40,126 nt of DNA from a bacterium (lineage in GTDB: Bacteria > Latescibacterota > Latescibacteria > Latescibacterales > Latescibacteraceae), in NCBI GenBank assembly GCA_021372535.1, contig JAJFUH010000107.1, positions 69,768 to 109,893 on the forward strand, written 5' to 3'. Positions within the stretch are counted from its first letter, which is position 1. Every line of letters starts with the position of its first letter. This document shows, piece by piece, positions 25,985 through 34,302 of the stretch. The notes beneath the pieces were generated by a model that was not told the origin of the DNA, made no database searches, and saw nothing but the letters and a program-made list of their open reading frames with translations. A program made the translations under genes and the position numbers.

Positions 25985-27565
25985 TCATGCATACCACGGG
26001 CGTTTACGGTCGAGCTTTCCGCCGAGCACCTCCATGGCGATGTTGACATCGTCCACGATCTGAAAGTCGTACATGCCCACACATATGAAGTCGGCGCCGC
26101 CGTCGAACGCATACTTGAATCCCTCTTTCGGCTCGATTGCGCCGGCAGCGAGAACCTTGAAAGCAATCCATGGCTGGCTGAGTGTCCCCATGAACTCGAT
26201 GGTCTCTTCCGGTTCGGTACACCAGAGATTGTCATGGTCTCCGAGTCCCTCTTTCGCTCCTTCGAGCCGGGCCGACCAGTAATCTGTCCGATGAAGCGTT
26301 TTTACCCAGAAATCCGGTATAACACCCTGTTCGACGCATTTTTTGACCGTATAGAGGTCATGCGCCCCGATACCGGCGGGGATGCCATTCTGACGGATGA
26401 GGTCGATCGCCTTCCCGACCGGCTCGACATTCCCCTCGCGGGCGTATTGGTCAGCGCTTGCGCCGTGCACATAACACGCGCTCGCGCCGAAATCGACACA
26501 CCGCTTCGCTCCCTCGATGATGTTGTCCGATGTGGTATTGGGTATGAATTTGATTTTGCCGATGCCACGGCGCCAGTATTCGTCCATGACACCCGACAGA
26601 ATCGGATTTGTGAGAAAGGCGTTGATTCCGCACTTCTCGGCAAGCATGAACGTTTCGAATATCTTCGCCTTGTGGTGGTATGCCTTGACGAGATTGGAGA
26701 CATAGAGGAGATCGCGGGCGTGGACGAAGCCGTTGATCAGGTTCCCGCCGAGGATGACGCGGCTCAGTCCGAGATTCTTGATTTGAGCCTGCGGAACCTT
26801 CTCTTTGAGGTTTTCCATGCTCGTGAAGCTGAAGGTCTTGGCTGTCGCGCGAGAGACCGCATCGGCCTGAAATTCCTTGAGGCGCTTCTCCTCGTAGCTC
26901 TCCCATCCGAGTTTCCTGAGCACTGCAATGATGAATATCCCGAGTACCGGGAATGTGGCGAGACTTTTGAAAAGCTCGCGGCGGCCGATTGAAGGGGGGG
27001 TATCATGGTTTTCGCCCGTCTGCTGCGACGCCTCTTTGGGGAGTGGTTGAGCGACCGAATCACCGGTGCGTTTTAATCGCAGATATGCAACATACCGGTC
27101 GAGCCCGAGGAATGTCCCGGTCGGAAAAAGCGCCACCACAATCAGAGCGATGAGTTCCACGAGGTTTTTATCAACGATCAGGTAGCTTCCCTCGGTTATA
27201 ACACCGTAATCCATGCCGATGAACGGAGGATTGGCGACATAGTACAGAAAAAGAAGGACAATGCCGAAAACGGCTGAGGGGCGGGTTAACAGACCGGCCA
27301 TGAGTCCCAGTCCGATGAGTGTGAGTCCCCAGATGTTGAGGAAATCGACTACGGAAAGGACGGAGGGTGTGTCAGCAATCCAGTGGAATATCGGGGAGAA
27401 TATCCACTTGGAAATGGCGAGAAATCCCTTGGATGTCCAGTCAGGGGTATAAATCTTGGCGACACCCTCGTAGAGAAAGTGCCATCCGACAGCCACGCGG
27501 AGCAGCGTGAGAGCGGAAAGCTGAATGAGGGTAACGGGTCGGTCCGGTTCGCTGCGAGGTATCAT
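25985..27565 (-). CDS. DoxX-family membrane domain fused via internal Tat-like segment to a barrel-like domain
   Basis: The 526-aa protein begins with a DoxX-type four-helix membrane domain (about 15-152; LRVAVGWHFLYEGVAKIY, LIGLGLMAGLLTRPSA). A polar linker leads to GRRELFK (194-200), a twin-arginine motif followed by a hydrophobic segment (201-217), as in Tat signals or anchors. Residues about 240-526 form a soluble alpha/beta domain that looks like a TIM barrel (LGLSRVILGGNLINGFVHARD, GINAFLTNP, YVHGAS, GIPAGIGAHDL, DFICVGMYDF). The expected topology puts the barrel in the periplasm, held by five helices. I do not recognise its enzyme activity; distant similarity to aldo/keto-reductase-like proteins is a guess. 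The ribosome site AAGGGG is 12 bp from the ATG. Confidence 0.82.
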   Translation of the reverse strand: MIPRSEPDRPVTLIQLSALTLLRVAVGWHFLYEGVAKIYTPDWTSKGFLAISKWIFSPIFHWIADTPSVLSVVDFLNIWGLTLIGLGLMAGLLTRPSAVFGIVLLFLYYVANPPFIGMDYGVITEGSYLIVDKNLVELIALIVVALFPTGTFLGLDRYVAYLRLKRTGDSVAQPLPKEASQQTGENHDTPPSIGRRELFKSLATFPVLGIFIIAVLRKLGWESYEEKRLKEFQADAVSRATAKTFSFTSMENLKEKVPQAQIKNLGLSRVILGGNLINGFVHARDLLYVSNLVKAYHHKAKIFETFMLAEKCGINAFLTNPILSGVMDEYWRRGIGKIKFIPNTTSDNIIEGAKRCVDFGASACYVHGASADQYAREGNVEPVGKAIDLIRQNGIPAGIGAHDLYTVKKCVEQGVIPDFWVKTLHRTDYWSARLEGAKEGLGDHDNLWCTEPEETIEFMGTLSQPWIAFKVLAAGAIEPKEGFKYAFDGGADFICVGMYDFQIVDDVNIAMEVLGGKLDRKRPWYA

Positions 27566-30125: not shown

Positions 30126-30191
30126 CCTTTTTAAATGACTTGCAGGAATTTGGAATAAAACACATATGGTACATTGTCGGGAGGGATATCT

Positions 30192-32132
30192 TTGAAATAC
30201 CTGAACACAATCGATTATACGGTCATTCTGATCTATTTTTCGATACTTCTCGGTCTCGGTCTTGTGCTCAAAAAGATGGCGTCACGAAGCCTCGAAGATT
30301 ACTTTCTCGGAGGCAGAAAGCTCCCCTGGTGGGCGCTCGGTGTCTCGGGAATGGCGTCGTATCTCGATATGACCGGCACCATGATCATTACATCGTTTCT
30401 GTTCATGCTCGGTCCCCGGGGACTGTTCATAGAGTTCCGGGGCGGCGCTGTCCTGCCGCTCGCTTTCATGCTCGTCTGGATGGGGAAATGGCACAGGCGG
30501 TCACGGTGTATAACCGGCGCCGAGTGGATGATATTCAGGTTCGGCGAGGGTTTCGGCGGTCAGTTTGCCCGTCTTACCGCGGCATTGGCAGCGATACTGC
30601 TCACTGTCGGCATGCTGGCATACCTCGTGAAAGGTGCAGGGCTTTTTCTGTCCATGTTCCTGCCTTTTTCTCCGCTCGCCTGCTCGCTCATCATGATAGG
30701 TGTCGCAGCGTTGTATACCATGGCTTCTGGTTTTTACGGCGTTGTGTTCATCGATCTTTTTCAATCAATGATCATTCTTGTTGCGGTTGTTGCGATTTCG
30801 CTCATGGCGTTCCTAAAACCATACGATGTTCAGAGCCTCGCCGCACTGGCCCATAGTGTAACCGGCAGCGCCGAATGGACGAGTTCACGGCTGCAATGGT
30901 TTACATCCATGCCGCGGGGTTACGAAGCCTACCGTCACCTTGCGATGTTCGCGATGTTTTACTTCCTCCGCCAGATATTCGGTGGCATGTGCGCGGGGGA
31001 CGACCCCAAGTATTTCGGCGCCCGCAGCGACCGTGAATGCGGCACGCTGACCTTCATGTGGACATCCCTCATGATGTTCCGGTGGCCCATGATGATGGCG
31101 TTTGCGGTGCTCGGACTTTTTCTCGTGCAGAATCTGTTTCCCGACCAGGGGGTGCTGATTCAGGCCGCCGATCTCATCAAGAATCACCTCGGCGCAGTCG
31201 ACAAGAGCCGCTGGCCCGATGCTCTTGCCGGAATCATCAATGCTCCCGGCCATTATCCGGCGCTCGTCGCCGGTCTCTCCAATCTGCTGGGGGATGACTG
31301 GTCATCGAAACTCCAGCTTCTGAGTTTCGAGGGAACCGTCAATCCCGAGCGCATTCTTCCGGCTGTCATTCTCTATGACATACCGATGGGTTTCCGCGGG
31401 ATGATTCTTGTGGCGCTCATCGCTGCGGCTATGACCACATTCGATTCCACGGTCAACAGGACGACGGGTTTCTTCATCCGTGATATCTATCAGCGGTATA
31501 TGAGACCTTCAGCCCCGAACAGGGAAATGATCGTTGCAAGCTGGGTTTTCATTGTCGTTCTCGTTGCGGTCGGGTTTGCCCTCGGATACTCGACAAGAAG
31601 CATCAACGATATTTGGGGATGGATCAACATGAGTTTCGGAGCCGGTCTCCTTATCCCCAGTCTCATGCGGTTTTACTGGTGGCGTTACAACGGCGGAGGT
31701 TTTGCCCTCGGCACCGTTGTCGGGATGGTTTTTGCCGTTGCACAGCGTTTCATGTTTCCCGAGCTCGACGAGCGTCTTCAGTTTGCGCTCGTAAGTGTTG
31801 TATCGTTCGCCGGCGCCGTTGCCGGAACCTATTTGAGCAGGCCGACCGACCGGGCGATACTCGAAAACTTTTACCATAAAACCCGGCCGTTCGGTTTCTG
31901 GGGGCCGCTCAGGAAAAAAATGTCCCCTGATATCCGCGCCGGTATGGAACGGGAGCACCGCTACGATATCATCGCGCTTCCGTTTGTTCTTGGCTGGCAG
32001 ATCACGCTTTTCATGCTGCCAATGCAGCTCATAATTAAATCCTATGGGGCATTCCGGGTTACATTTGCTGTCTGGGCCGTATGCTTCGCAGGGATGTACC
32101 TGTTCTGGTACCGTAAGCTGCCGGAAGGATGA
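30192..32132 (+). CDS. SSS-family sodium/solute symporter, first tandem copy (TTG start)
   Basis: I place the start at TTG 30192: GGGAGGG lies about 6 bp upstream, and from there the protein (646 aa) aligns from its second residue with the next gene. The earlier TTG at 30174 adds six residues with no ribosome site. The protein has roughly 13-15 membrane spans, with the SSS pattern DYFLGGRKLPWWALGVSGMA, then YTMASGFYGVVFIDLFQS and ALIAAAMTTFDSTVNR at the sodium site. It should import a solute with Na+. Of the first 61 aligned residues after the start, 53 are identical to the downstream copy, showing a tandem duplication. The substrate is unknown. Confidence 0.92.
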   Translation: MKYLNTIDYTVILIYFSILLGLGLVLKKMASRSLEDYFLGGRKLPWWALGVSGMASYLDMTGTMIITSFLFMLGPRGLFIEFRGGAVLPLAFMLVWMGKWHRRSRCITGAEWMIFRFGEGFGGQFARLTAALAAILLTVGMLAYLVKGAGLFLSMFLPFSPLACSLIMIGVAALYTMASGFYGVVFIDLFQSMIILVAVVAISLMAFLKPYDVQSLAALAHSVTGSAEWTSSRLQWFTSMPRGYEAYRHLAMFAMFYFLRQIFGGMCAGDDPKYFGARSDRECGTLTFMWTSLMMFRWPMMMAFAVLGLFLVQNLFPDQGVLIQAADLIKNHLGAVDKSRWPDALAGIINAPGHYPALVAGLSNLLGDDWSSKLQLLSFEGTVNPERILPAVILYDIPMGFRGMILVALIAAAMTTFDSTVNRTTGFFIRDIYQRYMRPSAPNREMIVASWVFIVVLVAVGFALGYSTRSINDIWGWINMSFGAGLLIPSLMRFYWWRYNGGGFALGTVVGMVFAVAQRFMFPELDERLQFALVSVVSFAGAVAGTYLSRPTDRAILENFYHKTRPFGFWGPLRKKMSPDIRAGMEREHRYDIIALPFVLGWQITLFMLPMQLIIKSYGAFRVTFAVWAVCFAGMYLFWYRKLPEG

Positions 32133-32361: not shown

Positions 32362-34302
32362 ATGGAATACCTGAACACGATCGATTATACAGTCATGCTG
32401 ATCTATTTTGCCATTCTTATAGGTCTCGGCATGGTTCTTAAAAAGATGGCATCCCGAAGTCTCGAGGATTACTTCCTCGGCGGAAGGAGACTCCCCTGGT
32501 GGGCGCTCGGCGTTTCGGGCATGGCATCGTTTCTCGATATCACCGGCACCATGATCATCACATCCTTCCTGTTCATGCTCGGACCGCGGGGGCTTTTCAT
32601 CGAGTTCCGCGGCGGCGCGGTGCTTGTTCTGCCCTTCATGCTCCTGTGGACCGGGAAATGGCACCGTCGCTCCGGCTGTATAACGGGAGCCGAGTGGATG
32701 GTGTTCAGGTTCGGCGAGAGTATCAGCGGGCAGTTCGCCCGTATCGCCCGCGCCATTGCGGAAATACTTATCACCATCGGAATGCTCGCTTATCTGGTCA
32801 AAGGGGTCGGATTATTCCTTTCGATGTTTCTTCCTTTTTCTCCGCTTGTGTGTTCGATTATCATGATCAGTGTGGCCGCGATCTATACCATGGCATCGGG
32901 TTTTTACGGCGTTGTATTCACCGACATGTTTCAATCGTTCATTATTCTCACCGCAGTCATAGCTATTTCGATACTGGCGCTCATGAAAGCTTCCGATTCG
33001 CAGACTATTGCGCTTCTTGCACATGAAGTCACCGGGAATCCCGACTGGATGACATCACGGCTCCGGTGGTTTACTTCGATGCCGAAGGGTTATGAAGCCT
33101 ACAGTCATCTCGCCATGTTCGCCTTCTTTTACCTTCTGCGTAATATTATCGGCGGTGTGGGCTCGGGAGACGATCCGAAATTCTTCGGCGCGAAGAGCGA
33201 CCGCGAGTGCGGGAAACTCACCTTTTTCTGGACATGGCTCATGATGTTCCGCTGGCCGCTCATGATATCTTTTGTCGTGCTCGGTCTGTTCCTCGTCAAG
33301 GATCTTTTCCCGGATCAGGGGGTGCTTATCCAGGCAGCCGATCTCATCAAAAACCATTTCGGCGCAATTGACAAGAGCCGCTGGGCCGATGTGCTGTCCG
33401 GCGTTATCCATTATCCCGAACGGTATCCGGACCTCGTTTCGGGTCTTTCCAACATTCTTGGGCAGAACTGGACATCCAAACTTCAGCTTCTCAGTTACGA
33501 GGGAACCATTAATCCCGAACGTATTCTTCCTGCTGTCATCCTGTTCGATATTCCCATGGGATTTCGCGGGATGATCCTTATCGCGCTTATTGCGGCATGT
33601 ATGTCCACCTTCGATTCCACGGTCAATAAGACAGCGGGATTTTTCACCCGCGATATCTACCAGCGCTATCTCCGCCCCTCGGCATCAAACAGGGAGCTCA
33701 TAACGGCCAGCTGGGGATTCATTGTCATACTGGTCACCGCAGGCTACGTGATGGGCTATTCAACGAGGAGTATCAACGATATCTGGGGCTGGATTATCAT
33801 GAGCCTCGGCGGAGGGATGATCATACCCTTTATGCTGCGCCTGTACTGGTGGCGTTTCAACGGAGGCGGTTTCGCCATCGGCCTGATGGGAGGCATGCTC
33901 TGCTCTGTAATCCAGCGGTTCATGTTTCCCGATCTCGATGAACGTCTCCAGTTTACCATTATTACCTCTATCGGATTGATTTGTTCGATAATCGGTACCT
34001 ATATCAGCAAACCAACCGATCGAGCGGTTCTTGAGAATTTCTATAGGAAAACACGCCCCTTCGGATTATGGGGACCTCTGAAATCCATTCTTTCTTCAGG
34101 GGAACGGACCGCGATGGAACACGAGCACCGTTACGATATCATCGCGCTTCCTTTTGTGATGCTCTGGCAGATTACCCTGTTCCTGCTGCCTATGCAGCTT
34201 ATCATCAGGGCGTATGATTCGTTTTTGTGGACTTTGCCGGTGTTTATTCTGTCGCTTGCAGGAATCTATTTCTTCTGGTACAAAAAACTGCCAACAACCT
34301 GA
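32362..34302 (+). CDS. SSS-family sodium/solute symporter, second tandem copy
   Basis: This 646-aa symporter is the paralogue of the gene just upstream, with the same length and spans. It shares DYFLGGRRLPWWALGVSGMA, YTMASGFYGVVFTDMFQS and LIAACMSTFDSTVNK. It uses ATG with AGGAGG 7 bp before it, unlike the TTG of its twin, so the two may be made in different amounts. Substitutions are mostly conservative, but MTTFDS becomes MSTFDS at the likely sodium site and GGMCAGDD becomes GGVGSGDD in a central loop, so selectivity may differ. The substrate is unknown. A TonB receptor follows 359 bp later under its own promoter. Confidence 0.93.
   Translation: MEYLNTIDYTVMLIYFAILIGLGMVLKKMASRSLEDYFLGGRRLPWWALGVSGMASFLDITGTMIITSFLFMLGPRGLFIEFRGGAVLVLPFMLLWTGKWHRRSGCITGAEWMVFRFGESISGQFARIARAIAEILITIGMLAYLVKGVGLFLSMFLPFSPLVCSIIMISVAAIYTMASGFYGVVFTDMFQSFIILTAVIAISILALMKASDSQTIALLAHEVTGNPDWMTSRLRWFTSMPKGYEAYSHLAMFAFFYLLRNIIGGVGSGDDPKFFGAKSDRECGKLTFFWTWLMMFRWPLMISFVVLGLFLVKDLFPDQGVLIQAADLIKNHFGAIDKSRWADVLSGVIHYPERYPDLVSGLSNILGQNWTSKLQLLSYEGTINPERILPAVILFDIPMGFRGMILIALIAACMSTFDSTVNKTAGFFTRDIYQRYLRPSASNRELITASWGFIVILVTAGYVMGYSTRSINDIWGWIIMSLGGGMIIPFMLRLYWWRFNGGGFAIGLMGGMLCSVIQRFMFPDLDERLQFTIITSIGLICSIIGTYISKPTDRAVLENFYRKTRPFGLWGPLKSILSSGERTAMEHEHRYDIIALPFVMLWQITLFLLPMQLIIRAYDSFLWTLPVFILSLAGIYFFWYKKLPTT

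Follow-up and report, generated by a model that had tools for sequence, protein, structure and literature searches.

The gene at positions 25985..27565 (minus strand) of the window analyzed here, a 40,126-nucleotide stretch of a Candidatus Latescibacterota genome, encodes a 526-residue protein (ATG start, stop codon at 25985-25987) that consists of a DoxX membrane domain, a linker, a twin-arginine (RR) anchor and a barrel of the aldo-keto reductase (AKR) fold. The explanation we favor, with a probability of roughly 0.7, is that this is a Sec-then-Tat membrane protein, with the barrel in the periplasm and DoxX as its partner. Sec would insert the four DoxX helices with both the N-terminus and the C-terminus of the domain inside, and the linker would keep the RR motif exposed to the cytoplasm. 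Sec would not complete the hydrophobic segment after the RR, which ends with K/R; this segment would act instead as an internal Tat signal-anchor that is not cleaved. The barrel would fold in the cytoplasm, be moved in the folded state to the periplasm by Tat, and stay tied to DoxX. In this view, the barrel is a divergent AKR-fold domain that has a conserved active-site set of its own and whose substrates are probably sugars or sugar derivatives, while DoxX is its probable partner in the membrane and might transfer electrons to quinone. The conservation of the RR, the Tat signals of stand-alone relatives and the existence of split pairs jointly lend good support to insertion by Sec followed by Tat, which would place the barrel in the periplasm. 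To our knowledge, few families are assembled by Sec and Tat jointly; the DoxX/barrel fusion is a new family inside this dual Sec/Tat class, to which it adds a widespread candidate.

The DoxX domain (residues 13-156, 27098..27529, minus strand) includes four predicted membrane helices, which in the AF2 model span residues 13-39, 67-90, 94-111 and 133-146. Residues 19-107 match the Pfam family PF07681 (DoxX) with 29.7 bits against a cut-off of 23.6 (E=1e-6), and each of the 80 aligned full-length fusions matches PF07681 at E<=0.1, with weak matches to PF04173 (DoxD) in 13 of them. The membrane domain shares PF07681 with the DoxD/DoxX family of thiosulfate:quinone oxidoreductase, but the match to the TQO_large_DoxD model is far below the cut-off (at best 15 bits, compared to 300, among the proteins scanned). 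The loop charges of the DoxX part agree with a topology in which both termini are inside, and the segment between TM4 and the RR contains, on average, 7.7 Lys and Arg residues in the fusion alignment. Most of this segment is a basic, variable linker (residues 157-194, 26984..27097, minus strand), which is predicted to be cytoplasmic and is K+R-rich, gappy and unconserved in the 80 homologues.

The twin-arginine pair, R195-R196 (26978..26983, minus strand), is part of the sequence GRRELFK (residues 194-200) and is followed by an uncharged hydrophobic stretch (201-216) and by R217-K218; residues 197-218 (26912..26977, minus strand) constitute the predicted anchor, TM5. R195 is present in 79 of the 80 fusions, with a single Lys exception, and both R196 and P206 are invariant. 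Despite the unconserved linker, the distance from the RR to the terminal K/R is identical in all 80 sequences, among which 70 are charge-free in the region of 201-216, 76 have K/R in position 217 and 78 in position 218. Arg accounts for 159 of the 160 residues at the RR positions, which exceeds chance; because the sequences are related, a nominal P value would exaggerate their independence. In the neighboring linker, Lys makes up 42% of the basic residues, so that positive charge alone is insufficient to explain an Arg-only pair. The architecture described in the initial annotation, namely, four DoxX helices, GRRELFK, a hydrophobic stretch and a soluble domain joined through an internal twin-arginine segment, is borne out by Pfam, AF2 and the alignment of homologues, and the loss of the Arg pair, which that annotation considered decisive against its reading, was looked for in the 80 fusions and not encountered. 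The sole case of KR replacing RR (SKRELVKNLAIVPVLGG, at about 4527-4600 of L071) provides a natural test of motif tolerance. The connector that leads to the barrel (residues 219-255, GWESYEEK...TFSF; 26801..26911, minus strand) belongs to the conserved exported form, and E225 and L229 within it are invariant in the 80 homologues. Tat profile models did not detect the internal RR; these short models are built for N-termini and also failed on the majority of the stand-alone signals examined. TatC is encoded in the same genome.

The relatives of the barrel that lack DoxX, about 36-58% identical to that of the window, mostly carry recognizable N-terminal Tat signals (about 20 proteins; for example, SRRTFVKGSLAGAALALGAGTGVAA in L163 and L177, and NRRSFVKG in L164). 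The stand-alone Tat-exported homologues that the initial annotation proposed to look for hence exist. The relatives that do not show such a signal are L170 and L186, in which none is clear, L192, which has a run of N, and L172 and L193, which are truncated. L163 and L177 are encoded in tandem on the same contig (G064). In a tree of 89 barrels, exported proteins, fused or with a Tat signal, were separated from a signal-less cytosolic-type clade with a support of 100/100; a distant Tat-signal sequence on a long branch, L165, grouped with the signal-less clade. This tree requires at least 4 changes of the fused state. L161, which is the same gene as L110 and has no DoxX, is nested among the fusions and bears the signal of a Tat lipoprotein; provided that the tree is correct, the barrel remained a Tat substrate upon the loss of DoxX. 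These natural variants (fused, stand-alone with a Tat signal, Tat lipoprotein and split) permit direct tests of the hand-over from Sec to Tat.

From the sequence data, Tat export of the barrel appears highly probable, and the two alternative topologies fare poorly. It is improbable that the RR does no more than set the topology by its positive charge, with Sec inserting helix 5 and exporting the barrel unfolded: such a scheme fits with the moderate hydrophobicity of TM5 and with the dual role of the RR, which is also a positive-inside signal in the model of Tat insertion given by Tooke et al. 2017 (PMC5449189), but it is at odds with the presence of Arg rather than Lys at the RR positions, with the stand-alone relatives bearing Tat and not Sec signals, and with the K/R residues directly after the helix, which, according to that article, disfavor Sec insertion. 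Even less credible is a cytoplasmic barrel preceded by a segment that does not cross the membrane. In its favor, the relatives in the outer clade have no signal, their sequences beginning with the barrel itself, and AF2 confidence is modest for residues 195-240; nevertheless, the lack of charges in residues 201-216 of most fusions, the full-support separation of the RR-bearing exported clade from the signal-less one, and the Tat lipoprotein within the exported clade all argue against it.

The predicted topology resembles that of the known dual Sec/Tat proteins, for which Tooke et al. (PMC5449189) name the actinobacterial Rieske proteins (Sco2149), the MoCo proteins (Sco3746), the MLMS-1 polyferredoxins and the YkuE-like metallophosphoesterases. 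As described there, such proteins share an even number of N-terminal helices, a conserved RR that immediately precedes a last helix followed by K/R, and a C-terminal globular domain; positive charges C-terminal to the last helix are described for the Sec/Tat hand-over, and counterparts encoded by separate genes are noted. All these features have parallels in the fusion. The analogy with Rieske proteins drawn in the initial annotation is apt, but the families of Sco3746 and polyferredoxin are closer, with five helices (four inserted by Sec, then the RR, helix 5 and the exported domain) and with separate-gene counterparts. The fusion differs from these proteins in that it combines DoxX with an AKR-fold barrel, rather than with heme/MoCo, Fe-S or metallophosphoesterase domains, and its dual insertion is predicted from sequence. 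The low hydrophobicity of the last helix, a further trait given there for dual Sec/Tat proteins, is not clearly seen in TM5, which is comparable to the DoxX helices on two scales. The fusion is not among the families named by Tooke et al. 2017 (PMC5449189), and DoxX is not mentioned in the sections of that article that were consulted.

The soluble domain (residues 256-526, 271 amino acids; 25988..26800, minus strand), predicted to be periplasmic, very probably adopts the aldo-keto reductase fold. The AF2 model contains 8 strands (pLDDT 93.9, pTM 0.92), and its best PDB matches in Foldseek are aldo-keto reductases, the nearest being L-galactose dehydrogenase (7svq) and PA4992 (4exb). The barrel profile matched the 17 AKRs of the same genome with P=1.3e-10; in the controls, another TIM-barrel family gave 6.7e-4 and reversed profiles gave 0.07-0.3. 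BKACE, IMPDH and ribulose-phosphate epimerase gave matches that were below the threshold or short, and AKR was preferred after the profile and fold tests. With the aldo-keto reductases (PF00248), the barrel shares the topology with an N-terminal hairpin, a collinear profile match and the fold match, but it is only about 14% identical to them, is predicted to be exported, has no match to PF00248 at the thresholds applied and, in the profile alignment, does not keep the Asp/Tyr/Lys/His catalytic tetrad, with L318 at the position of Asp, no Tyr, N/D343 at Lys and H/Q367 at His. Therefore, dehydrogenase chemistry cannot be assumed, and a nicotinamide cofactor is not implied, although a barrel with the AKR fold could hold a nucleotide. 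Scans against Pfam, NCBIfam and PHROGs yielded neither a family name for the barrel nor a recognized cofactor motif, so that a family without a Pfam or NCBIfam name is marked out. Several aldo-keto reductases of the same genome (L132-L139, L141-L144) begin with RR segments that resemble N-terminal Tat signals.

Active sites of barrel enzymes are located at the C-terminal ends of the strands, and in the model, most of the conserved polar residues appear to lie at or near these ends. Five residues, N275, H282, H402, K470 and D492, are invariant in both the exported and the cytosolic-type relatives, whereas the exported group is marked by R284, D285, Y288, K422, T423, H425 and a C-terminal RxRPW motif. 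The genes for cytosolic-type relatives adjoin those for RhaT (L043) and L-rhamnose mutarotase (L028, L044), and the locus in the window includes carbohydrate genes (GH2, YdjC and SASA); given these neighbors, the substrate of the barrel is probably a sugar or a sugar derivative. In L043 (500-2364), a stand-alone barrel of the cytosolic type is encoded by a gene that overlaps the 5' end of the one for RhaT, an L-rhamnose symporter, which suggests a single operon and a role in deoxysugar metabolism.

The closest unfused relatives of the DoxX domain shed some light on its possible role. In the same genome and in two relatives from Latescibacterota, an unfused DoxX gene directly precedes a gene for a Gfo/Idh/MocA protein with a Tat signal (L034:4757-6981, L036:4505-6731 and L037:1841-4083; the same arrangement is found in L217-L222), whereas in a fourth relative, L035, the unfused DoxX lacks such a neighbor. 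In a 247-genome sample of the phylum of L119 (Bacteroidota), all 6 unfused DoxX genes are directly followed by one for a Gfo/Idh-type protein with a Tat signal. Gfo/Idh domains were identified by Pfam in all four proteins scanned (L034, L036, L217 and L219), and the two scanned against NCBIfam showed some resemblance to glycoside 3-dehydrogenases of the BT_2158 type (136 and 115 bits, far below the NF058561 cut-off of 750). The gene that follows in L034 (3-keto-disaccharide hydrolase / xylose-isomerase-like) contains a 3-keto-disaccharide hydrolase domain. These BT_2158-like pairs are similar to the fusion in that they contain the closest unfused DoxX, an adjoining sugar-type enzyme with a Tat signal and, in L034, a homologous anchor (45% match to residues 192-229 of the window protein), but differ in consisting of two genes instead of one and in having the Rossmann Gfo/Idh fold instead of an AKR barrel. 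The pairs tie this DoxX subfamily to exported sugar-type enzymes, which provides a recurrent partner type for DoxX, a domain that is common but whose role is unclear.

The reading in the initial annotation, a membrane redox enzyme with dual Sec/Tat insertion of a cofactor-bearing barrel, is partly supported. The internal RR segment and the exported barrel are supported by the sequence, but the redox and cofactor parts are weakened by the absence of the AKR tetrad, and we regard a redox link through DoxX as plausible, though below an even chance. A contender that is likewise short of an even chance keeps the same topology while reducing DoxX to an anchor or scaffold for a non-redox barrel, of the epimerase, lyase or hydrolase type, that acts on a sugar or sugar acid. 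Besides the lost tetrad, this possibility accommodates the invariant His402 and Lys470 along with the other conserved polar residues, the RhaT and L-rhamnose mutarotase neighbors of the cytosolic relatives, and the stand-alone Tat barrels, for which no DoxX was detected in the flanks examined (about 1.5 kb). A mere anchor, however, sits uneasily with a DoxX part that is conserved rather than drifting and with the pairing of the nearest unfused DoxX with Tat-signal dehydrogenases. The most elaborate version of the redox reading, a one-chain periplasmic sugar redox enzyme in which a folded AKR-fold barrel with a trapped nicotinamide nucleotide would exchange electrons with quinone via DoxX, the same DoxX subfamily serving the split Tat-exported Gfo/Idh glycoside dehydrogenases, seems unlikely. 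Were DoxX to act on quinone in this manner, periplasmic enzymes that hold NAD(P) would be connected to the respiratory chain by an undescribed route. In the literature searched, there was no account of this architecture with respect to fusion, quinone or electron transfer, and DoxX appeared together with twin-arginine in a single paper, on copper resistance. Clustering of the neighbors over the fusion loci, apart from 12 loci at which the focal gene was missed by a simple ORF caller, revealed no conserved partner and no conserved redox partner gene.

The fusion, for which the initial annotation proposed a search, is found in many environmental bacterial phyla and is not peculiar to this organism. 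The best match comes from a relative in the same genus (G007, 76% identity), which has two copies; a second copy in the source genome is 66% identical. A search of GTDB contigs with the RR-barrel region as the query retrieved 202 relatives, the best 80 of which, nearly all DoxX fusions, come from Bacteroidota, Acidobacteriota, Planctomycetota, KSB1, Hydrogenedentota, Kiritimatiellota/Verrucomicrobia and others. The 80 aligned full-length fusions likewise cover the first five of these groups and others. In evenly drawn whole-genome samples, close relatives (E<=1e-40) were detected in 8 of 294 genomes from the phylum of L110, 1 of 296 from that of L119 and 8 of 247 from that of L073, which indicates a broad but patchy distribution. 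An isolated 51-residue frame in G006 (L038:4055-4192) aligns with no more than the final 46 residues of the fusion (74%) and could be a gene remnant or a contig join. Elsewhere in the window, two adjacent, closely similar long ORFs for membrane transporters (30174-32132 and 32362-34302), by eye resembling sodium/solute symporters, apparently result from a tandem duplication.
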